Below, piece after piece: positions 2,818 through 19,391 of a stretch of 27,408 bases of DNA (positions within the stretch are counted from its first letter, which is position 1; every line of letters begins with the position of its first letter). Source of the stretch: a virus. The stretch lies in IMG/VR virus record IMGVR_UViG_3300044451_000365, positions 1 to 27,408 of that record; one strand, 5' to 3'. Below the pieces are notes generated by a model. That model saw only the letters and a list, made by a program, of their open reading frames with translations. It ran no database searches and was not told the DNA's origin. The translations under genes and the position numbers were made by a program.

Positions 2818-3381
2818 TTACAGATATTCGTGATAATCGTAGTTCATTGTCACAGTAAATTCAGAAAATGCGTCTGCCTGATCGTAACTTAAATCAATCG
2901 GACTGATATCGGACGGCCAACAATTGTATAATTTAAGCTTCTTTCTGTAAGAATTAGTACCGGCACCCATTGGTTGTCCTGTCGGCGGCGTATCTATTCC
3001 ACTAGTGTGGTTAATATCGTCCCAGTTAATAATCCAGTTTATTCCGGTTCCGATATCAAAACGGTGATTGTTATTTGCTGGATCATTTGCTAAAGTAATC
3101 CAGTTTTCGAATAATTTTCTAATACTTGTATTACTTATTGCGTCATAAATTTGAATAACCCATTCACCAAATTGTCGTTCTCCGCCAAACTTTATAACTC
3201 TTCCCTGGTGGCCCACTGGTATAAAATTAACAATAGAACCAGGAACAGATGTAGCTTTGGCATATATTCTGAATGTTCCAGCATCGAGAGTGCCTATACC
3301 ACCAGGTATTGTAAAATCGATACCGTAACGATTAGATCTGGATGCTGAAAATTTTTCTCTGAAAGTTTGTACATCTACCAT
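2818..3381 (-). CDS. 19: Tail tube protein, gp19-like, second copy
   Basis: This is a 187-residue paralogue of the neighbouring tube gene. Both carry FSASRSNRY or TASRSNRY near the start, an FAKAT/YAKAT...PG block, and a GRxIKFxGERQFGEWVIQxYD core. Both also share a conserved C-terminal block SPIDLSYDQADAFSEFT. In the T4 family this protein forms hexameric rings of the inner tail tube through which DNA passes. T4 has one gp19 of 163 residues; here two adjacent genes are present. The start ATG follows AAAGGAAAAAATAA, an acceptable ribosome site, 13 bases after the first copy's stop. Which copy makes most of the tube cannot be told. One could be a variant ring at the tail end or an alternative tube protein. 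Confidence 0.92.
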   Translation of the reverse strand: MVDVQTFREKFSASRSNRYGIDFTIPGGIGTLDAGTFRIYAKATSVPGSIVNFIPVGHQGRVIKFGGERQFGEWVIQIYDAISNTSIRKLFENWITLANDPANNNHRFDIGTGINWIINWDDINHTSGIDTPPTGQPMGAGTNSYRKKLKLYNCWPSDISPIDLSYDQADAFSEFTVTMNYDYHEYL

Positions 3382-3394
3382 TTATTTTTTCCTT

Positions 3395-3949
3395 TTATTG
3401 GTAAATATGATAATCGTATGCCAATGTAAGTGTAAATTCAGAAAATGCGTCTGCCTGATCGTAACTTAAATCAATCGGACTGATATCTATTGGCCAACAA
3501 TTATGTAATTCAAACGTTTGTGTAAAATCACCAGTGCCTTCTCCAAAGCCGTCATTGGTGTCAAACCACTCGACGGTCCATGGTGAAGTGGATGCAGTAT
3601 TTAATCGTACCTCATGATCTTTAGAAGAGTTTGTTAATTCGATCCAGTTTTCCATGATTTCACGGATATTGCCTTGGGGTTCTCCTCGAATAGTTCCATC
3701 GTAAACCTGAATAACCCATTCGCCGAATTGTCGTTCTCCAGCAAACTTGATTATTCTCCCCCGATAGCCCACAGGGATCATTCCTATTTGAGTTCCTGGA
3801 ATCGCAGTTGCCTTTGCAAACAATCTCATATGTGAAACATCTAGACCTAATTCTAAATCTTCTGGTGGATAGGGAGTGATTAGATATCGATTGGACCGAG
3901 ATGCTGTGAAAGCTGTTCGAAATGCATTGATGTTTTGGGGCCCTGACAT
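3395..3949 (-). CDS. 19: Tail tube protein, gp19-like, first copy
   Basis: This is a 184-residue tail tube subunit with the family blocks FTASRSNRYLITPYP, LFAKATAIPGTQIGMIPV, KFAGERQFGEWVIQVYD and a terminal NCWPIDISPIDLSYDQADAF. It lies directly after the sheath gene, the T4 arrangement 18-19. An AGGAGAATAAATTA sequence before the ATG gives a good ribosome site. It differs from the second copy mainly in the central variable region (about residues 85-140), which corresponds to the part of the subunit likely to vary in loops. No frame damage is seen in either copy, so both are probably expressed. Confidence 0.94.
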   Translation of the reverse strand: MSGPQNINAFRTAFTASRSNRYLITPYPPEDLELGLDVSHMRLFAKATAIPGTQIGMIPVGYRGRIIKFAGERQFGEWVIQVYDGTIRGEPQGNIREIMENWIELTNSSKDHEVRLNTASTSPWTVEWFDTNDGFGEGTGDFTQTFELHNCWPIDISPIDLSYDQADAFSEFTLTLAYDYHIYQ

Positions 3950-10137: not shown

Positions 10138-10932
10138 TTATTTTGGTTGTTCTGTTGGAGGAGTGGGAGGAGTGGGAGGAGTGGGAGGAGTGGGAGCTTC
10201 TGGTGTTGTAACAGAAACCAACTGAACATCTTCAAATTTCATATTTTCAATATAATATCTTCTGGTTATAGGAGAAATAGACTCTTCTGGAGAAGATTCT
10301 GTATAATTATTGAACCCTGGCATTTGTAGAGGACAGTTTAGTTTAGGATAATCTAATTTAGAGTACTCTGTTTCTGCAGCGTTCAACCAAGTCATAGGTT
10401 TGTCTCCGCATCCACAACCACCACAAAAAAATTTACCTTCTGTTTTACTTTTTCTCAAGAATTCACATGGAGGCAATTGTCCTTCTATATTTTTGTTTCC
10501 AAAACAACTTAAAACTCGCAATTGTTTGAGTTCTATTGATACTTTGTTGTTTTGAACCCCCCTCGACGCCAAAGCAGATACTAGACTTTTTGCCATTTTG
10601 AACATACCATCCGGATTTTCTATTTCTCTTGCTTTAAATTCTGGTTGAGGTTCTGGAGAAACAGAAGATTCAGATTGTGGTGTTGGTTTAGTTTGTTCTT
10701 TCATAGTAAATACCTCATATAATGTATTTATATTAGAAGAAATAGTTGGAGTAGAATTATATTTAAAATTATTTAAAATGTTTTCATCAATTGAATTGAC
10801 TTTTTTTACCACAGGAATAGATTTATTTTCTTGCACATTTTGTGTCGGTTGAATATCTTGCTTGATATTTTTTTCTTCTTTTTTGCAATGGTCTCCACTG
10901 CAAGGCTTATGTTTATTGCAACCACACGACAT
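10138..10932 (-). CDS. Cysteine-rich protein of unknown function with Thr-Pro-Pro repeat tail
   Basis: I do not recognise a named family. The reading frame allows a GTG start at 10938 overlapping the upstream stop (GTGA), but an ATG two codons on gives a natural MSCGCNKHKPCSG start and I prefer it. The N terminus has Cys at 3, 5, 11 and 16. A low-complexity Pro/Ser/Gln linker follows, then a compact region with Cys143, Cys156, the CGGCGCG cluster (170, 173, 175) and Cys200 before PLQMPGF. This pattern suggests a metal or Fe-S site. The protein ends in four Thr-Pro-Pro repeats and a short tail. It sits between the fibre genes and neck gp13, the T4 wac position, so it may be a virion or assembly factor. 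No fibritin-like coiled coil is seen, so I do not call it fibritin. Confidence 0.72.
   Translation of the reverse strand: MSCGCNKHKPCSGDHCKKEEKNIKQDIQPTQNVQENKSIPVVKKVNSIDENILNNFKYNSTPTISSNINTLYEVFTMKEQTKPTPQSESSVSPEPQPEFKAREIENPDGMFKMAKSLVSALASRGVQNNKVSIELKQLRVLSCFGNKNIEGQLPPCEFLRKSKTEGKFFCGGCGCGDKPMTWLNAAETEYSKLDYPKLNCPLQMPGFNNYTESSPEESISPITRRYYIENMKFEDVQLVSVTTPEAPTPPTPPTPPTPPTEQPK
10157..10192. repeat. Four perfect 9-base tandem repeats (Thr-Pro-Pro coding)
   Basis: Four copies of GGAGGAGTG stand head to tail, followed by a partial fifth. On the coding strand they give the Pro-Thr-Pro-Pro-Thr-Pro-Pro run at the C terminus of the cysteine-rich protein. The perfect identity implies slippage-prone copy number. 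Confidence 0.9.
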
Positions 10933-10934
10933 AA

Positions 10935-12074
10935 TCACTGTGTACTACACGGATCGTCACATAGAGTACCACAATTTTGCTGGGTTGTTCCACCCCATTT
11001 AAGGCATAAATTCAGCGGAACATTGGTGCATAATCCTTGAATACAACATGGAATCGATTCAAATGAGGTTCCACTGGGTGCAGCTTGTTGACATGTCACG
11101 TATGCATAAAAAGTGCTTCCTGGATTCTGACAATCTTTATAATTAATATAATCCAAACATGTTGTGTTGGTATGACAAGCTCCTTGAGTATAGGCCGAAA
11201 ATTTTGAACTTTCGTAGCCTGCATGAAAAACTTCTGCAGTTATACCGGAATCAGAACTATGTTTTGTACAAACTATAATATTTTTTCCTGGATATAATAC
11301 CGAACTCGACTGTCTAAATTTAACACTCGAAGGAAAACCAGTCAATCCATCCGATACTATAAGGGCAAAAGTAGATATTTCATTTGAGTTAGAACTATCA
11401 TTAAATCCAGTAAATCCTGTGATATTGTTTGCTTCAACAACTGTTATCGAATTAACATCGAGAATTGAATCACTGGATGTTTTACTTCTGTTTGTAAATA
11501 AAACAGAATTAGTAGATCCTGTTCCCGGATTTAAATGTAAATATAACGATTGAGTATTTCCAGTGAATCCGTAATCTGTGAATTTGGTTGTAGTACTAGT
11601 ATCGAGATATAAAATTCCTTTAACAGAATTTGGATTTCCAACAGGTAAATCTCCTGCAGTAGCGTTGATTGTTATAAAATTCGCATCCGATGTTAGTGAT
11701 ATTCCTGCTGTCTTACTTTCTATATTTCTGAAAGTAAATTTGGCTAGATTTGTTTCATTTGAAATTCCCAGAAATAAAGATGATCCCGGGGTAGCTGTTA
11801 TTCCGTCTCCAAAGAAAACAGTAACGCCCCTAATCAATGATGCATCGAAAGTAAATCCAATTGTTCCCGTGTTAATTGTTATAATATCAGAAGTAACAGA
11901 ATTTTGACTCAAATTTAAAATAAAACTTGTCAGAGTTGTTCCAGTATTTCCTGTGTTTCCGGTTACACTTGTACCAGGATCTCCAGTTAGTCCTGTAGGA
12001 CCCATTGGACCTTGAAGACCATCCAGACCCTTTGTTCCAGATTGAGAAAAAAAATGACTGCTTCCTATACTCAT
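10935..12074 (-). CDS. Collagen-like fibre protein with cysteine-rich C terminus (paralogue of next gene upstream)
   Basis: This 379-residue protein starts with a short leader and then Gly-X-Y repeats (residues 13-45, including GPMGPTGLTGDPG and GNTGNTG), expected to form a collagen-like triple helix. The middle 230 residues are Ser/Thr/Gly/Asn-rich beta-prone sequence typical of trimeric fibres. The last 80 residues are cysteine-rich, with CLDYINYKDC and a module CC-IQGLC-...-CLKWGG-...-C. This tail aligns with the C terminus of the 398-residue neighbour (CLDYVTQSHC, CC, ECLNFKG), so the two are paralogues. It lies in the slot of T4 genes 12 and wac. I infer a tail fibre or whisker involved in host recognition. 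There is no enzyme motif. Confidence 0.78.
   Translation of the reverse strand: MSIGSSHFFSQSGTKGLDGLQGPMGPTGLTGDPGTSVTGNTGNTGTTLTSFILNLSQNSVTSDIITINTGTIGFTFDASLIRGVTVFFGDGITATPGSSLFLGISNETNLAKFTFRNIESKTAGISLTSDANFITINATAGDLPVGNPNSVKGILYLDTSTTTKFTDYGFTGNTQSLYLHLNPGTGSTNSVLFTNRSKTSSDSILDVNSITVVEANNITGFTGFNDSSNSNEISTFALIVSDGLTGFPSSVKFRQSSSVLYPGKNIIVCTKHSSDSGITAEVFHAGYESSKFSAYTQGACHTNTTCLDYINYKDCQNPGSTFYAYVTCQQAAPSGTSFESIPCCIQGLCTNVPLNLCLKWGGTTQQNCGTLCDDPCSTQ
11940..12038. repeat. Collagen-like Gly-X-Y coding stretch in the 379-residue fibre
   Basis: This is a degenerate 9-base-scale repeat coding for about eleven Gly-X-Y triplets near the N terminus, rich in Gly-Pro-x, Gly-x-Thr and Gly-Asn-Thr. 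It is less regular than the stretch in the neighbouring fibre gene. Confidence 0.8.
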
Positions 12075-12094
12075 ATGCTTTATTTCTTTTATAT

Positions 12095-13291
12095 TTATGG
12101 ATTGTCACATGGAAGACAGATACCAAAACACGTATTTGACGGAAGCTGTGAACAAGGAAGAGTTTTTACTATTCCTTTGAAATTTAAACATTCTTCTGGT
12201 CTAGCATCTTGACACTTGAAACTTTTAGAAGTAAAGTCCCAATAACAACATCCTATTTTTCCTGTCGTTATTCCATCGCAAGTTTTTCCAACGAAAAAAT
12301 TACTGCCATTGGTGATACCTGTTATTTTTGTGCAATGAGATTGAGTAACATAATCCAGGCAATTTCCATTTGATAACACACAACTACCGTAAAATACTTT
12401 TGTATTTGCTAATGCTGTTCTACCCGATTCTAATAATGGTCGAAACCATACTATATGACTATTTGTAGATCCTGTACTGTATGTGTCAAATAAATATAAT
12501 GCGCTCTGAAGGGTTGATCCAGATATAGTTGAAATAGGTTTATTCAAAATCACAGGACCAGTTATTCCAGAAATAGGCATAGACTTGAATTGTGTTTCTG
12601 ATGCTAAAGTTCCCACAGAATCTTTTCTGTAATTGTCAAGTTGTCCAGTATTTCCAGATATATCTGTTTCTCTCATATAAGGAATAGACAAGTGTAATAG
12701 TCTTGCATCAGAATTCCAATTATTATTTTTGGTAAAATTAATTAGCGTATTGCCTGGATTAAATATAATTTCTTTTGCAAGATTACCAGCCGATGCACCA
12801 GAAGAGATAGGATTTGAACCAAGACATAGTCCAGTCAACTCAATTGTTGGGTTTGTAATATTTGTCGTTATGTTTTTGAACTTTAATGTTGAAAACTTTA
12901 TTATATCAAAACTATAACCACTTTGAGCTAAGTTTAACTCTCCTTTATAGGTCCTGCTGCTGTTTAATCCTAATATACTAAATCCTGTTGTAGTGATTCC
13001 TTTTAAATCCAAAAATACAATACTATTAGTTCCTTTTTGTGAAGAAATTCCACTGAAACCGGCTATATTGGTGAATAGTAATGTTGCACCAGAAACTCCA
13101 TTGATTCCAAAACTAAATCCTATTCCCGCACTAACCAGTTTAATTCCAGTTACACCAGAACCAGTGTTTCCGGGTGAGCCTGTTTTTGGTGGTCCTTGAG
13201 GTCCTTGGGGTCCTTGGGGTCCTTGTTCGCCTTGGGGTCCTCGGGGTCCCAAGCCGGTTGAGTATATTATAGGTGAACTGCCAGTGGACAT
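12095..13291 (-). CDS. Collagen-like fibre protein with cysteine-rich C terminus
   Basis: This is a 398-residue putative fibre. After 14 residues comes an uninterrupted collagen-like run GPRGPQGEQGPQGPQGPQG (from residue 15), then GSPGNTGSGVTG, then a long beta-prone body. That body has many Gly-Ile-Thr and Ser-Gly-Ile motifs and a CLG-containing strand. The C terminus (from about residue 305) is cysteine-rich: NGNCLDYVTQSHC, KTCDG, IGCCYWDF, FKCQDARPEECLNFKG and a final CFGICLPC. The tail order matches the 379-residue neighbour, indicating duplication followed by divergence of the body. A late-promoter-like TATAAATA lies four bases before the ATG. It is probably a trimeric, surface-exposed host-recognition protein. 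Confidence 0.78.
   Translation of the reverse strand: MSTGSSPIIYSTGLGPRGPQGEQGPQGPQGPQGPPKTGSPGNTGSGVTGIKLVSAGIGFSFGINGVSGATLLFTNIAGFSGISSQKGTNSIVFLDLKGITTTGFSILGLNSSRTYKGELNLAQSGYSFDIIKFSTLKFKNITTNITNPTIELTGLCLGSNPISSGASAGNLAKEIIFNPGNTLINFTKNNNWNSDARLLHLSIPYMRETDISGNTGQLDNYRKDSVGTLASETQFKSMPISGITGPVILNKPISTISGSTLQSALYLFDTYSTGSTNSHIVWFRPLLESGRTALANTKVFYGSCVLSNGNCLDYVTQSHCTKITGITNGSNFFVGKTCDGITTGKIGCCYWDFTSKSFKCQDARPEECLNFKGIVKTLPCSQLPSNTCFGICLPCDNP
13187..13249. repeat. Collagen-like Gly-Pro-Gln tandem repeats
   Basis: Near-perfect 9-base repeats (complement GGTCCTTGG) encode Gly-Pro-Gln triplets at residues 15-35 of the 398-residue fibre. This is the most regular collagen stretch in the window. 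Confidence 0.9.
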
Positions 13292-13303
13292 ATTTTATTT
13301 ATA
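13292..13303 (-). promoter_or_regulatory. TATAAATA motif just before the 398-residue fibre gene
   Basis: On the minus strand TATAAATA (complement at 13296-13303) overlaps the stop codon of the previous gene and ends four bases before the ATG. It matches the T4 late-promoter element. RNA starting the usual 5-7 bases downstream would begin at or inside the start codon, so it would be leaderless. It may instead just be an AT-rich translation start. Low confidence as a promoter. Confidence 0.3.
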
Positions 13304-15098
13304 AAGAAACAGGCAACTTTTTGTTTATTTGCGGTATAGAATTAGAATCACATCTGATGAATTTTATTGGTCTTACTTTGTTTTTTTCTGTTCTGTTGGA
13401 TTTTTTTGTTATGTATTTAACATTGTTTTCATACGGAAACGTGACTGTCCAGGCAACAGATCCTGCTGCAGCAGTTGATCCAGTAAATATACCTTGTGAA
13501 TCCGAGAAAGAACCGGTAGAAGACCAATGGGTTCCAGTTATTGGAGCTCCTTCTGAATTAATTAGTATTTGATTTAAATTTTTGTATTTACAAAGATAAC
13601 TGATATAACTTAATTCATCTAAAGCAGGAATATACCAAGAAGACTCGTTTTCTTGATTGATGATTAGTTTTCTATTTATTTCTCGCAATCCAACAATCAT
13701 TGGAGTAGTTGTTATTGAATCGAATAAGTCGTTTGCTTTGTAATCTTCAGAAGTAAGTTCTTGTAGCGTTAATCCAGCAACAGAAAATAATTCTGCAGAA
13801 TTAATTCTTGAAGTGTTGTTAAATCCCCAACTAGTAGACCAGTTTCCATTTACATCATGTTTTAAATCAATTCCATTGTTTCTTTTTTCATCACATCTAT
13901 ATGCTAATATATGTTTTTTGTTTAATTCTATTTCTATTGTTTGATTTAAATAATATCCTTCTTTGGTATTCTTTATCTCGTTGGGATTTGTTTCGAGTAT
14001 TCTTCCCGAAACTGATAATTGAGGACCCCAGTCAAGACCTCCTCTGGAAAAACTAAAAGTATCAATTTCTATGATTCTTCTTGTCAAATCGTCTACGTGT
14101 TCCACTGTCATCGAGTCTAATGATAAAATCATGGCATAAGAATCTTCTGTGTTGCATCGATTATTTCGTTCTGAACCGTATCCTCTCCAATCGTAACGTG
14201 AGAAATATAAAACACTTTCTTGTGTTGATCCGTCTAGAACTTCATTTATATTTGTAAAATTGTAAACATCTCTACCGTAACATATAGATCTACCTGGACT
14301 ATATACTCCTATGAACATGCCCCCAGCTACCAAATCTCCGAATTTCAGTTCTGTCAGCGGAACTGCAACATATTCACAGGACAAATTTTCTTTTCCTGTG
14401 TAAAATTCTTGTGCATTTCTTTGAATTCCGGTAAATATTTTTCCACTCTCTAAACAACTTGCTCCAACTACTCCTAATTCTAGTGTGGTTCCATCACAAC
14501 AACCTCCAGTTCCTTCGATACATATAGATTTTTCTCCCATGAAACATCGAGTTCCTATTCCTTGAAAAAACATTTTATTGTTTTCGCATATCGATTGTGT
14601 TGTTTCTGAACATAACCCCTTTCCATCACAACACGCTCCTAATCCAGAAACAGAACTGAAACAGTCTATGTCTTTGCAGGACTGACCAGCAAGAAATCTG
14701 GTCCAGTTGAATGCAAAATTAAATTTTGCAGCAATCGAATGACAACCACAATATGTGGTAGTCTGACACGGTATAATAGTGTTATTTTCTGTGTCGTACA
14801 TACAACATCCACCACTGTGTCCCTCCATAGCAGTCGCACCACAAAGAGATTCGGAAGACGGAATAAAATAACCAAAACAATCAGCTTGACTGGTTGGATA
14901 TGTGCAATTACATTCACTAGTTGAACCAGAAATCGTACTATTAATACAAGTTCCTTGTAATAAATTCTTGTAATTTACTTTATTGTCATGTGAATTCAGT
15001 TGTGAATTCAGTTGTGAATTCAGTAAATTTTTATTACTGTATTGGTTTAGTACATTTAATTCTGTTTCTGAAATTGTTTCTGATGTTTCATAAGGCAT
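13299..15098 (-). CDS. Cysteine-rich adhesin with DUF1566-like (C-type-lectin-fold) C-terminal domain
   Basis: This 599-residue protein is in three parts. Residues 1-50 are a Gln/Asn-rich leader containing a repeated LNSQ unit. Residues 50-250 are packed with cysteines, including two or three copies of a module of type GxCC-x-Gly-x-C-...-C-x-x-Gly-x-x-x-x-Gly (LGACCDGKGLC, TGGCCDGTTLE, SGGCCMYD). From about residue 250, FGDLVAGGMFIGVYSPG begins a domain resembling the start of DUF1566-type modules. The end from Trp488 has WYIPALDELSYI, HWSSTGSF, AWTVTFPY and VRPIKFIRC, which fits DUF1566 order (W-x-x-P-x-x-x-E-L, WSST, AW, VRCVR). Such folds present variable ligand-binding surfaces in phage and bacterial adhesins. 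I infer a receptor-binding fibre component. It has an AGGAC ribosome site 10 bases from the ATG. Confidence 0.75.
   Translation of the reverse strand: MPYETSETISETELNVLNQYSNKNLLNSQLNSQLNSHDNKVNYKNLLQGTCINSTISGSTSECNCTYPTSQADCFGYFIPSSESLCGATAMEGHSGGCCMYDTENNTIIPCQTTTYCGCHSIAAKFNFAFNWTRFLAGQSCKDIDCFSSVSGLGACCDGKGLCSETTQSICENNKMFFQGIGTRCFMGEKSICIEGTGGCCDGTTLELGVVGASCLESGKIFTGIQRNAQEFYTGKENLSCEYVAVPLTELKFGDLVAGGMFIGVYSPGRSICYGRDVYNFTNINEVLDGSTQESVLYFSRYDWRGYGSERNNRCNTEDSYAMILSLDSMTVEHVDDLTRRIIEIDTFSFSRGGLDWGPQLSVSGRILETNPNEIKNTKEGYYLNQTIEIELNKKHILAYRCDEKRNNGIDLKHDVNGNWSTSWGFNNTSRINSAELFSVAGLTLQELTSEDYKANDLFDSITTTPMIVGLREINRKLIINQENESSWYIPALDELSYISYLCKYKNLNQILINSEGAPITGTHWSSTGSFSDSQGIFTGSTAAAGSVAWTVTFPYENNVKYITKKSNRTEKNKVRPIKFIRCDSNSIPQINKKLPVSL
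14989..15024. repeat. Three perfect 12-base tandem repeats with EcoRI-type cores
   Basis: Three copies of TGTGAATTCAGT lie head to tail in the leader of the 599-residue adhesin, encoding the Leu-Asn-Ser-Gln tetrapeptide repeat. The perfect identity indicates recent expansion by slippage. Confidence 0.92.
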
Positions 15099-15116
15099 GT
15101 TATAGTCCTGGTTGTT

Positions 15117-18100
15117 CTAAAGATCTCCGCTAGATAAACAAGTACTTCCGGATCGTATACTAGGAGTACAACTAGGACAGTTAGAGTCAGGAACACTACA
15201 CGGTTCACATGATCTTATGACAAAATCATCCCGTGTTCGACATTCACAACACAGATTACAGTCTGGATTGTCTGGATCACATCCGATTGGATTACAAGAA
15301 CCCCTTGGCCCTAATTGTGTACATGCAGACCCACATTGAGGAGGATATATTCTTCCTTGTCCTGTGTGTATTTCCTCGTTGAAACTCTTATTGTATGCCC
15401 AATCTGTGATATATAGGAGTCTATTTGAACTTCCTATTGCATCAGGTTTAATCTCAAATCCGATCCAGCCGTAATAAATCTTCTCGACGCCCTCTAGTAG
15501 GTCGTTGTATATAAGTCGGAATCCAATAAATCCAGTAGAACAGTGTTTAGGTTGAAGAACATCATTCCAAACATAAGACTCACACGTTTTTCCTACGGTT
15601 GCTTTGTGATATGTGGTGCCGGTAACCCATCCAGAAGATACTGGATTTCCCTCGACCCCGATCGTGAAACCGGCAGGCAATCTCATTACATGTGTGGTTC
15701 CATTCGGGCCACCACGGGCAAATATCTCTGTAAAGGCTGCATCTAATTGAGATTTTTTTCTGGATCCTATTATAAACTGATCTCTATTGAGAGTATTGAT
15801 ACTGGTAGCGTTGCCCGTTAACCCTGAAACAATAATCCCATGAGTCAATCCGACTATTGAATTCATAAATGTAGTTTCCGACACCAGTGTGATTCCTGCC
15901 CCGCTGGTTATCCCGGTAAAATCGAAACGATTATAAAATCTCTGAAATTGTGAATTAACATTTGCCACTGTTATTCCGTTCAAATTAAATCCGCTCCACC
16001 AAATATTAGTTAATGGTGGCGGTTTAGAGATACACGCAGCACAATTAGGTTCACATGTCAAATTTCCGTATGCACAACACAATACACCACATTGTCCCGT
16101 ACTAGGATTACATGTGCAGCCAGAACATCCGGTTATTCCACCAACAGCAAGACAGGCACTCTGTTCAGCACTGTAACAAATGTTATTAAAACAACAATCT
16201 CCTATTGGTGTAATATTGCCCAAATGAATTGGCTTTAATGCACGAAGTCCAACACCAGTTCGAACAGGACCAGGCCAAATTACACCGTCACCTGTATTGC
16301 CTGTTAAACCAAACACGATGTCTCTTCTAGCAACGCTCCATATATCTTGTTTATCTGGTATTGAACTGGGAGTGGCATTAGTTATTCCGTCCATAGTATT
16401 TCCTGCGGTGTTTCCAAAGAAAAGATAGCCTCGTGTAACTAAATCTTTGCTTGCGCCGGCCAAATGAGAGGCGATACTACCAGAACTTCCTTTTATCAAA
16501 TATCCAGCACTTTCGGTTTCTTGACCACTTGGAATTCGAGGATTTACATCAAATCCAGTACCATAAGAGTATCCTGTATTGCCCATCAATTCTTTAACCA
16601 AACCGATAGTATCAAATAAACCAGTTATATTTGGTGCAGACCAAGTGATTTTATCAAAACTATATCCATTTGAAATATCAGTTCCTGAACGATATCGTTT
16701 ACTGCTATGATATTGTGTATTATCTAGCGTTGATCCGATGTATACTGAACGGGCAGCAAATTCCCATTCTGCCTCTACAGGCAATCTCATTCCTATTTGA
16801 TTGAATTTTTTATTTGCTTCATCGAATTTAGTCTGAGAATCAATAATATAAGGATTATATGTGTGTCCTGCTGTCCCTTGGATCATTTTTTCAGTCAATA
16901 CACTTTCTGAAATATAATAGGGATTAGTTAATGATACATATACTTGTTCTTTGGGTCTACTCATTGTGGCTCCCCAAAGACTAACTGGACCCCATGGGGA
17001 ACCGGTTGCTCCCATCGTGAATCCATCTGGAAGTACAAGAACCATAGTTATTCCGGTGGCTTCATGTCGAATTTTATACGGTAATTTCACATCGTTTACA
17101 TGTTCCAAATAATGAGAAGCATGTGCAAGTCTTTGTGTGAATCGATTAGAGTCGAGGGTAAGACTATTGGTGATGTCGTATCCCATTCGATAATCTCCAG
17201 TCGTAGACCACTGTGTTGTGAACCAATTGGCGATTATGTTTTGACCAATCGTCCAAGTAAATCCGTGTTGTGTTAAACCAGTATTTCCAAATAATTGATA
17301 AGCGAGTGGAATTGTTGGAGCAGGAGGAGGCGGCGTGATAACAGATATTTGGTCAAACAATTCCCAGGGCCCTGGCCGCTCACTCAGAGTCTCTGCCTTA
17401 ATCCGGTATGTCCCCGATGGAATATCATTTTCCACAGTGATTCCGATTTGGGTGTTGCTTAGTACGTTGTGGGTTACATTAAATTTAAATTGACTTTGAG
17501 AACTATTCTCAAAAAATACTTTGTTGACACTTAACAAAGAATTTCCTGTGATTGTGGCAGTGGAAGTGACTCCTTGTGTAAACCCCGACGGAGAAATAGT
17601 ACTGCCGGATGGTTGCAGATATATATGAATCGATGCCTGAGTAGTTCCAGCTGGATGTGTATAAGTTAAAAACCCGTTTCCCCATGTTGGGCCCAACCCC
17701 GGCACTGTTATCTGCAGCAAGGTATTTTGTGTATTTTCGTAATCAATAATGCATGCAGTGCCTCCGATACGAGCTGAGGCAAATTGAGTTATTCCGATAA
17801 AATTAGATGTTATGAAATTCGATCCGGAAAACCCCTTTGGTTGTGTACCAGTATTGCCTTGAATGAATCTTTGTTCTGGATCCAAAGAAAATCCTGGTTT
17901 TGCCAGAACAGCCGTTGTTATATTGGCAGATCTATTTCCCATAGTCACTCTTATTTCTGCATTCATTGTGTGTCCAATTTGATTTCCCTCAAGCGGATGA
18001 GCAATTATTAATGTCATACCGCCTGGAGGAGTAGACGAATCCAACTGAGGCAAAATAGAAGTCTGCTTTGTAATACTGAACTGTATGCCACTGGTTGGAC

Positions 18101-19391
18101 CAAGATTTATTCCTGTTATTGTTGTGGTAGCTCCAGGTACTTCGATATAATATGTTGCGCCAACAGCCCCCATGGAATGAATTTCAATTGCAGGGTGATA
18201 TTCAAATGCATTAGATTTTGTTATAGTTGTGTTAAAGTTAGAAGCGTTGATTGTTACACCCGGTGGAACATTCGACTGAAGCAAATTATTCAACTTTAAA
18301 GATATTCCTGTTCCTCCGGATGGAACTGATCCAGTATAACCAGGCAAAAAACCTTGAAGTTTATCAAAACTATCTCCCAGGGGTCTAACTTCAATGGGGG
18401 TAAAAGCCTGTGCGCCAGGATATTTTATAGATACTTTTTTTATGGTCTCTGCGTATAACTTTGGTTCTGTACACTGTATAGTAAAGGTGAATCCACTAGT
18501 GTTTCCGTGATTTACTCCAGTAACTGCATTGAAGAACGTGATACCTTCAGCACCTACTGTAATATCAGGAACAAACTTTAATCCTATTTCGGCTGTTTCT
18601 CCATCATTATTTGTTACAGTGAGTGTTTTGCCGGTAATCGAAGTGGCACCAGACAATCCCAGTTTATTAGTTAAATTATTTTCTGCTTGTGTACCACCTT
18701 GAAAAAAAACACTATCATTTTGTGACATTCCAATGATATTTTTTTGAACTTCACTGTTAATAGTATATGTAATTCCTAGAACACTATTCGCTTTTGTGTT
18801 AGGATTAGTACTAATGGATAAAGTCGTACGTTCTTCTTCTTCAGGAGTAGTCAGGTTTAGCATTCCAATGTATTCTGGCGTTTTATCTCTGGTCAGCTTG
18901 GGCGAATCATCCACGAGTATAATTCCAGCATTTTGAATCTTAAAGGTTGGAAATAAAGGATCAAATCCTTTACTAGAATCTAGACTGCCACTTAGGTCTG
19001 GTTGATCTGCAGATTGTATTCCGTAAATCAAATCGAATGTCGCTCCGTCCGAAAAGAAGTCCACTATTGATTGTCCATTGTGTGTCTTGCCTGTAGCGAA
19101 TTCTATTTCAGTGTATGCACATTGTGGATTTTGGAAGGAATTTGAAACATTCCAAGTCATTATATCGAATGTTCTTCCATTGTGATGAATTTTAAGCAAA
19201 GTGTGTTGATTGTTGCCGAAACAGTTATATGCGGAACATCCTTCAGAATCCGGATCAAAAGTAGAACCTTCAAGGTGAGGCTCTGTACCGGTTTCGTATG
19301 CAGAACTTATGAATGAAATTCCGCGAAGTATGAATGTCAATCCTGCCGGATCCGTACCCATGTTTTTGGTATCCAGAGTAAGTCCACTCAT
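15117..19391 (-). CDS. Giant adhesin with beta-sandwich repeats and two FGE-sulfatase-like (lectin-fold) domains
   Basis: This has 1424 residues and is the longest gene in the window. Residues 1-680 are beta-rich, with IPT/TIG-like units, the clearest at about 605-680 (TITGNSLLSVNKVFF...). A PPPPAP hinge follows near 690. Residues about 783-1052 match the formylglycine-generating-enzyme family: MVLVLPDGFTMG, YYISESVLTE, MRLPVEAEWEFAAR (Met868-Arg881), GLFDTIGLVKELMGN and GVGLRAL. The catalytic cysteine pair of true FGE is not seen, so a structural, ligand-binding role is likely. A cysteine cluster (GDCCFNNIC, CLAVGG) and a second Pro hinge (PPPLT) follow. A shorter second FGE-like region comes next (MRLPAGFTIGVEGNP, TGFIGFRLIY), then a tail of about 75 residues with some 13 cysteines. 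It starts as TAATG overlapping the gene upstream. Probable receptor-binding fibre. Confidence 0.78.
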   Translation of the reverse strand: MSGLTLDTKNMGTDPAGLTFILRGISFISSAYETGTEPHLEGSTFDPDSEGCSAYNCFGNNQHTLLKIHHNGRTFDIMTWNVSNSFQNPQCAYTEIEFATGKTHNGQSIVDFFSDGATFDLIYGIQSADQPDLSGSLDSSKGFDPLFPTFKIQNAGIILVDDSPKLTRDKTPEYIGMLNLTTPEEEERTTLSISTNPNTKANSVLGITYTINSEVQKNIIGMSQNDSVFFQGGTQAENNLTNKLGLSGATSITGKTLTVTNNDGETAEIGLKFVPDITVGAEGITFFNAVTGVNHGNTSGFTFTIQCTEPKLYAETIKKVSIKYPGAQAFTPIEVRPLGDSFDKLQGFLPGYTGSVPSGGTGISLKLNNLLQSNVPPGVTINASNFNTTITKSNAFEYHPAIEIHSMGAVGATYYIEVPGATTTITGINLGPTSGIQFSITKQTSILPQLDSSTPPGGMTLIIAHPLEGNQIGHTMNAEIRVTMGNRSANITTAVLAKPGFSLDPEQRFIQGNTGTQPKGFSGSNFITSNFIGITQFASARIGGTACIIDYENTQNTLLQITVPGLGPTWGNGFLTYTHPAGTTQASIHIYLQPSGSTISPSGFTQGVTSTATITGNSLLSVNKVFFENSSQSQFKFNVTHNVLSNTQIGITVENDIPSGTYRIKAETLSERPGPWELFDQISVITPPPPAPTIPLAYQLFGNTGLTQHGFTWTIGQNIIANWFTTQWSTTGDYRMGYDITNSLTLDSNRFTQRLAHASHYLEHVNDVKLPYKIRHEATGITMVLVLPDGFTMGATGSPWGPVSLWGATMSRPKEQVYVSLTNPYYISESVLTEKMIQGTAGHTYNPYIIDSQTKFDEANKKFNQIGMRLPVEAEWEFAARSVYIGSTLDNTQYHSSKRYRSGTDISNGYSFDKITWSAPNITGLFDTIGLVKELMGNTGYSYGTGFDVNPRIPSGQETESAGYLIKGSSGSIASHLAGASKDLVTRGYLFFGNTAGNTMDGITNATPSSIPDKQDIWSVARRDIVFGLTGNTGDGVIWPGPVRTGVGLRALKPIHLGNITPIGDCCFNNICYSAEQSACLAVGGITGCSGCTCNPSTGQCGVLCCAYGNLTCEPNCAACISKPPPLTNIWWSGFNLNGITVANVNSQFQRFYNRFDFTGITSGAGITLVSETTFMNSIVGLTHGIIVSGLTGNATSINTLNRDQFIIGSRKKSQLDAAFTEIFARGGPNGTTHVMRLPAGFTIGVEGNPVSSGWVTGTTYHKATVGKTCESYVWNDVLQPKHCSTGFIGFRLIYNDLLEGVEKIYYGWIGFEIKPDAIGSSNRLLYITDWAYNKSFNEEIHTGQGRIYPPQCGSACTQLGPRGSCNPIGCDPDNPDCNLCCECRTRDDFVIRSCEPCSVPDSNCPSCTPSIRSGSTCLSSGDL

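Follow-up and report, generated by a model that had tools for sequence, protein, structure and literature searches.

What do the many cysteines in the fibre proteins of a T4-like phage do? The virus record IMGVR_UViG_3300044451_000365 (27,408 bases; this whole stretch is called the window here) encodes a T4-like structural cassette on its minus strand, and the gene order past gp13 is g266, g379, g398, g599, g1424 and g1036. The cassette proteins gp21 to gp13 contain 0 to 5 cysteines, compared with 12 in g379, 13 in g398, 27 in g599 and 33 in g1424. An original prediction, made from the letters of this stretch, proposed that these last four proteins share a cysteine-rich module that either binds metal or forms disulfides after release. 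In total, we found a 38-residue, six-cysteine module in five copies that are strong by profile and four that are weaker, distributed over the four fibre or adhesin proteins. The way in which its cysteines are lost predicts three disulfides, and one unit of the luminal domain of iRhom, an animal membrane protein, is a likely relative.

The four motifs on which the original prediction rested are all found in the 379-, 398-, 599- and 1424-residue proteins. The literal pattern given for them, CC-x(2-8)-C-x(6-8)-C-x(2-4)-G, describes two of these examples (at g379 residue 343 and g1424 residue 1066) but not the other two; widened to CC-x(2-10)-C-x(6-8)-C-x(2-8)-G, it describes all four and nothing else among the 22 window proteins. 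Four matches to the widened pattern were reached in 0 of 1000 shuffles of whole proteins, but in 62 of 2000 when only the cysteine-rich stretches were shuffled. Because of this recurrence, which is the point in favor of the pattern being a chance outcome of cysteine-rich composition, the pattern by itself is weak evidence, only mildly unusual against such shuffles.

A leave-out profile argued against chance. It was built on 44 modules from related phages, none of them taken from the window or its closest relatives (loci L007 to L013), and recovered g599 (E 1e-7), g398 (4e-6) and g379 (3e-5) with the HMMER composition correction on. Turning the correction off added g1424 (4e-8), and every remaining window protein stayed at E 1.5 or worse. 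All four regions had a best score above 1000 of 1000 full shuffles. With cysteine positions held fixed, g398, g599 and g1424 again beat 1000 of 1000 shuffles, while for g379 the best copy was reached by 10 of 1000 and the summed score by none of 1000. On the basis of the profile and the cysteine-fixed shuffles, we conclude that the cysteines are equivalent in position across the four proteins, rather than non-equivalent, the outcome that the original prediction had named as speaking against it. Together with the conserved placement of the modules in relatives, which bear them in the same places, these results led us to rule out chance, whose probability we regard as practically nil.

The module consensus is G-A-C-C ... 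G-x-C ... C-x3-G-G-x-[FYW]-x-G-x-G-[TS]-x-C ... C, and we number its cysteines C1 to C6. Strong copies, scoring 16 to 31 bits with an iterated profile, are the two in g379, module 1 of g398, module 3 of g599 and the module of g1424. Three of the four examples first noticed are thus individually well supported, but the g398 copy beginning IGCCYWDF scores no more than 4.6 bits by itself, and its support comes from relatives and from its location behind a strong copy. Further copies in single-C or degenerate form, overlooked earlier, are present in g379, g398 and g599; a profile scan found the module absent from the cysteine-rich tail of g1424 (residues 1350 to 1424), g1036 and g266. In the collagen-like proteins g379 and g398 the modules come last; in g599 they precede a conserved C-terminal domain, and in g1424 the module follows an FGE/TvpA-like domain. 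Nothing in Pfam, NCBIfam or PHROGs matched the module stretches of the proteins scanned; the neighboring domains named by those libraries are collagen, FGE-sulfatase, VWA, BACON, dockerin and, weakly, Lcl_C. g379, g398 and g1036 resemble collagen-like phage tail fibres in their apparently collagen-like N-terminal stretches (in g379 with a Pfam Collagen match below the cut-off) and their PHROG tail-fibre matches, but those families do not include the cysteine module.

Relatives of the module accompany gp13 in other viruses. With g599 alone as query, no relative was found in viral contigs, and gp13 used as bait yielded 31 related virus loci, several of which are the same virus or near copies and so are not independent. 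At least one module was present upstream of gp13 in 18 of the 31, and in 16 of the 20 loci with at least 2.5 kb upstream; the four module-less loci in the latter group (L033 to L036) are among the most distant in gp13. g599 and its relatives have both the modules and the C-terminal domain in common (27 to 49% identity), and counterparts of g379 or g398 occur in L011, L016 and L022. Module proteins hold up to 233 cysteines in 2017 residues (L122), with 199 in 1643 residues in L030. At L122 (3910-9960) and L129 (3883-8154), proteins of 1424 to 2017 residues consist of about 12% cysteine, and the fetched stretches contain no gp13 match. A related phage protein (L030, 1-2658) has a von Willebrand factor A (VWA) domain (E 4e-13) between tandem cysteine modules, and in a related T4-like phage (L016, 1931-6151) a BACON domain adjoins the modules.

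Among 50,697 named phage records, tblastn with g599, g398 and a viral multi-module protein gave no match, a negative weakened by low-complexity filtering. A single-module search of named phages returned 23 records at E 8 to 10 (22 from Pseudomonas phages and one from a Salmonella phage, the latter aligned over 90% of the query), which we judged to be chance, and matches in 13 plasmid records, confined to the VWA part of the query, were likewise set aside. Neither psbA nor thioredoxin was found in 16 partial related records; the psbA result decides nothing about the host. The excerpted text of a paper on Far-T4 phages mentions neither cysteine nor tail fibres (PMC4360716).

The module is also encoded by bacteria, chiefly Planctomycetota. 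When a small alignment was used to scan the genomes of bacteria and archaea, 292 stretches came up, 256 of them encoding the module. Record titles of the 80 loci kept name Planctomycetota in 69 cases, unassigned bacteria in 6 and other groups in 5 (Bacteroidia, Lewinellaceae, Limnohabitans and two Eisenbacteria), some of which are possibly misbinned. Two genomes with complete chromosome records, L108 and L097, contain 136 and 131 module matches (E <= 1e-3). Many of the bacterial proteins have about 520 residues and four modules, and one frame (L093) has 30; the 520-residue, four-module protein of L038 terminates in a dockerin domain, and in L099 a signal-peptide-like start leads directly into the first module. 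By a crude rule, such a start was present in 57 of 77 bacterial module open reading frames (ORFs), in 1 of 36 viral ones and in 0 of 4 in the window. Planctomycete tandem-module proteins, presumably secreted, have the same module and consensus as the phage copies but differ in that most have signal-peptide-like starts and some a dockerin-like end, whereas the fibre proteins that bear the phage copies lack signal peptides. Cysteine-rich Pfam families did not match nine planctomycete module proteins. One L016 phage module is 74% identical in protein, and 69% in DNA, to that of the Planctomycetota contig L038, and therefore transfer is suggested, in a direction that is unproven; we assume that the two data sets may both stem from the same African lake. 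Planctomycete cell walls are described as containing a cysteine-rich YTV family (PMC8567305).

The closest match of known structure was iRhom. We searched 177,635 distinct PDB sequences with a 23-module profile, to which relatives contributed 22 modules and the window one. Four iRhom sequences came out on top (iRhom1 at E 4.8e-6 and 6e-6, iRhom2 at 4.7e-4 and 5.3e-4), followed by two lysine-tRNA ligases at E 0.25, making six sequences in all at E <= 10. T4 gp8, to which a segment had initially been likened and which we take to be present in PDB, was not among the six, and that likeness thus found no support. All six module cysteines align with iRhom in the register CC-x5-C-x7-C-x12-C-x3-C, and a profile of module pairs matched iRhoms only (E 9.5e-5 to 4.5e-3). 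When the non-cysteine residues of the iRhom module were shuffled, its score was reached in 0 of 5000 shuffles with each of two profiles; for a second, weaker copy, which precedes it in the same domain, the score was reached by 76 of 5000 cysteine-fixed shuffles with one profile and 1 of 5000 with the other.

Structure prediction led to the same stretch. AlphaFold2 modelled g599 residues 149 to 246, with 63 related rows, at a mean predicted local distance difference test (pLDDT) score of 82.3, the best ten-residue blocks within the modules reaching 92, and gave a beta-beta-alpha-beta fold twice; a canonical module pair from L028 was modelled at pLDDT 92.5. A Foldseek search of both models against 350,542 PDB chains returned only iRhom chains, at E 0.8 to 1.4, which is not significant, and a fold search of BFVD gave 10 matches, all at E 4.7 or worse. 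In VIA-align, the second module of the L028 model superposed on iRhom with Z 4.3 to 4.8 and 2.0 to 2.1 Å over 39 to 40 residues, at 30 to 32% identity. The stretches concerned lie at about 596 to 637 of iRhom1 and 568 to 609 of iRhom2, in the iRhom homology domain (PDB 9xy4, 9q7y, 8snl and 9o58). This luminal domain is reported to be stapled by 8 disulfides in cryo-EM structures (PMC11248996, PMC13277793, PMC12184519), a published AlphaFold model pairs all 16 of its cysteines (PMC10148629), and it has been termed unprecedented (PMC11248996) and unique among all known structural domains (PMC8233286). As we predict for the module, it is extracellular and disulfide-stapled. The proteins otherwise differ: iRhom is an animal seven-helix membrane protein whose domain spans about 240 residues with large loops, and the phage proteins are soluble fibre proteins. 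The rhomboid membrane core had no Pfam match in the four window proteins at E <= 1, and therefore they are not iRhoms.

It could be argued that the iRhom likeness reflects convergence of a small cysteine-rich fold, with the phage and planctomycete modules still forming one family. Only about 38 residues were compared, the eukaryotic sequences were those in PDB, and the Foldseek E values are as given above. Even so, no other PDB sequence, and so no other cysteine-rich family, ranked above iRhom; no cysteine-fixed shuffle reached its score; the structure comparison found the same stretch; and a second, weaker copy lies within the same domain. We consider convergence rather unlikely. As sequence and structure point to the same iRhom stretch, we favor homology, which is likely but not proven. 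No published link between module and iRhom was found in searches on bacterial homologues or origin of iRhom, planctomycete cysteine-rich repeats, phage disulfides and planctomycete T4-like phages, and a search on cysteine-rich myovirus fibres gave nothing; these searches covered titles and abstract starts of open-licence papers.

How the cysteines are lost bears on whether they hold metal or pair with each other. All six are kept in 516 of 572 unique modules. Across the 572, C1 and C4 were lost jointly in 23 modules, C2 and C6 in 6 and C3 and C5 in 3, pairs that use every cysteine once. C4 was never lost without C1, and C1 was lost without C4 in 3 modules; C6 was lost without C2 in 14. (Module 1 of g398 was counted as keeping C6, since its tail runs into the next module, although by eye it is without C6.) Because the cysteines vanish mainly in complementary pairs, co-loss predicts three disulfides, C1-C4, C2-C6 and C3-C5, and argues against a four-ligand metal site. 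The module columns also contain no conserved histidine or other ligand-type residue.

Of the two roles originally proposed, disulfides are thus favored by the pairwise co-loss, the missing histidine column and the match to the 8-disulfide iRhom domain, and metal is not. Zinc or an iron-sulphur center, bound in the reducing cytoplasm and stabilizing fibre tips during assembly, would suit proteins that are made in the cytoplasm and that, in all but 1 of 36 viral ORFs, lack a secretion-type start. But the losses fall into three complementary pairs and not into fours, no ligand column is conserved, and relatives occur both in a luminal domain whose cysteines are all paired and in proteins whose starts are of the secretion type. 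We rejected metal binding on the co-loss pattern and consider it very improbable. A different kind of bond is suggested by the odd or extra cysteines in some copies (13 in g398, 27 in g599 and 33 in g1424) and by the fact that modules terminate collagen-like proteins, which are presumably trimers: the cysteines could mainly bond between chains, locking fibre trimers, or carry reactive thiols for exchange at the host surface. We regard this as improbable, given that the six canonical positions fit three internal pairs, that 516 of the 572 modules keep all six and that bacterial relatives occur in long tandem arrays; the extra cysteines might yet link chains. Since the phage copies have no signal peptides, their predicted internal disulfides probably form after lysis, which fits the suggestion of closure after release.

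Taken together, these data make it fairly probable that a homologous module of about 38 residues, which folds independently as beta-beta-alpha-beta and is held by C1-C4, C2-C6 and C3-C5, is common to the four window proteins. The module would belong to a nameless extracellular family that is expanded in secreted proteins of some planctomycetes and supplies one or more units of the iRhom homology domain. Its identity and register, the predicted fold, the pairwise co-loss, the iRhom match and the distribution are the computed parts of this account. On the phage, collagen-like fibres would carry the module at their C-terminus, presumably the distal end, and adhesins would carry it next to lectin-type domains. 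Its thiols may stay reduced during cytoplasmic assembly and be oxidised after lysis, and the oxidised modules may serve as rigid, protease-resistant spacers or binding tips. The phage lineage may have acquired the module from planctomycete-type secreted proteins, perhaps those of its host.

Several results weigh against this account. Taken singly, four of the nine copies in the window score weakly (0.4 to 4.6 bits; g398 module 2 and g599 modules 1, 2 and 4), their support coming from order and relatives, and g1424 was missed by the leave-out profile with composition correction on. Other joint losses occur (C3-C6, C5-C6 and C1-C6 in 2 modules each; C1-C5, C4-C5 and C4-C6 in one each), and independent co-loss events are few (4, 4 and 3 clusters), because most C1-C4 losses come from one module of one planctomycete protein family. 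Besides the insignificant Foldseek values, the window model itself aligned to iRhom with a Z of only 2.1 to 3.2, and VIA-align covers only chains ranked by Foldseek, with any Z under 8 possibly reflecting a common arrangement. Finally, the module is patchy even inside Planctomycetota. Using one viral profile at E 1e-5 and counting in the center genome, we found it in 4 of 99 genomes in a phylum draw around L108 (titled Planctomycetaceae) and 9 of 61 in a class draw around L075 (titled Phycisphaeraceae); a phylum draw around L076 (titled Lewinellaceae) gave 1 of 98, the one being the center genome.

Coordinates of the module copies and adjoining domains are listed below.

Features of the module-bearing fibre and adhesin genes in the window
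Feature	Position	Strand	Description
g379 module 2	10947..11051	-	Residues 342-376, C-terminal end of the 379-residue collagen-like fibre protein; 18.0 bits, iterated profile
g379 module 1	11085..11183	-	Residues 298-330; variant without C2 and C6; 16.5 bits
g379 collagen-like N-terminal stretch	11940..12038	-	Residues 13-45; Pfam Collagen E 0.0015, below the Pfam cut-off; PHROG tail-fibre matches
g398 module 2	12128..12253	-	Residues 347-388; 4.6 bits alone, weak; second-module counterparts in L011 and L026
g398 module 1	12272..12388	-	Residues 302-340; variant without C2 and C6; 23.0 bits
g599 C-terminal domain	13299..14380	-	About residues 240-599; 27-49% identity to relatives; L026 counterpart matches Lcl_C weakly (E 0.0065, below cut-off)
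g599 module 4	14376..14507	-	Residues 198-241; variant without C3; 2.4 bits alone, weak; aligns with the relatives' second module; modelled
g599 module 3	14520..14639	-	Residues 154-193; most canonical window copy; 30.9 bits; block pLDDT about 91
g599 module 2	14661..14813	-	Residues 96-146; long variant; 3.8 bits alone, weak
g599 module 1	14829..14954	-	Residues 49-90; degenerate; 0.4 bits, very weak; placed by position and cysteine spacing only
g1424 gene	15117..19391	-	
g1424 module	16089..16202	-	Residues 1064-1101; 20.2 bits with composition correction off; missed with correction on
g1424 FGE-sulfatase/TvpA-like domain	16482..16835	-	About residues 853-970, protein-upstream of the module; Pfam FGE-sulfatase E 6e-6; PDB 2y3c E 3.5e-4

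Two of these neighboring domains recall adhesins of the C-type lectin fold, through the match of g1424 to 2y3c and the weak Lcl_C match of the g599 counterpart in L026. We take 2y3c to be TvpA, the variable protein of a diversity-generating retroelement. The phages differ from that system in that no reverse transcriptase was found in 16 related partial records, and therefore there is no sign of such a retroelement in them. By eye, the fibre proteins (window 1491-27408) are also strikingly rich in Thr-Gly dipeptides (GITG, TGNTG) beyond the collagen-like stretches.

The wider cassette is T4-like. gp17 matches T4-like phages, the best named matches having 52 to 56% identity and being mostly cyanophages; gp21, gp20, the two gp19 copies, gp18 and gp16 to gp13 carry names that we assume from gene order. 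The two gp19-like (tail tube) genes stand side by side on the minus strand (2818-3949), and the pair is retained in several close relatives, such as L007 to L009 and L012. gp13 and gp14, nearly adjacent in the window, are separated by about 0.8 kb in L022 (4413-5249). Adjoining gp13, g266 (10138-10938, minus strand) has a separate conserved cluster of cysteines (C145, C158, C172, C175, C177 and C202, including CGGCGC) that is present in most relatives and is without a Pfam or PHROG match; this cluster resembles a metal or iron-sulphur site more closely than the module does.

Small disulfide repeats are already known as a kind; the surprise here is the likely relative in iRhom. We tentatively suggest, as a possibility that we hold to be somewhat doubtful, that the iRhom luminal domain descends from an extracellular disulfide repeat of bacteria or phages, probably as two tandem copies with loops inserted, and that T4-like phages of aquatic bacteria carry the module reduced on their fibres, locking it only after lysis, so that a redox step would complete the virion outside the cell. 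The module, missing from the family libraries searched, would then occur in the fibres of phages, in proteins secreted by planctomycetes and in a signalling cofactor of animals. iRhom controls an inflammation-related protease, and with relatives now offered for the part of its homology domain that the module closely matches, the origin of that domain becomes testable; the specific disulfide topology predicted can be checked in deposited structures. The findings also raise the question of how a virus assembles proteins with so many cysteines in a reducing cytoplasm, and they make the module a lead towards phages of Planctomycetota.

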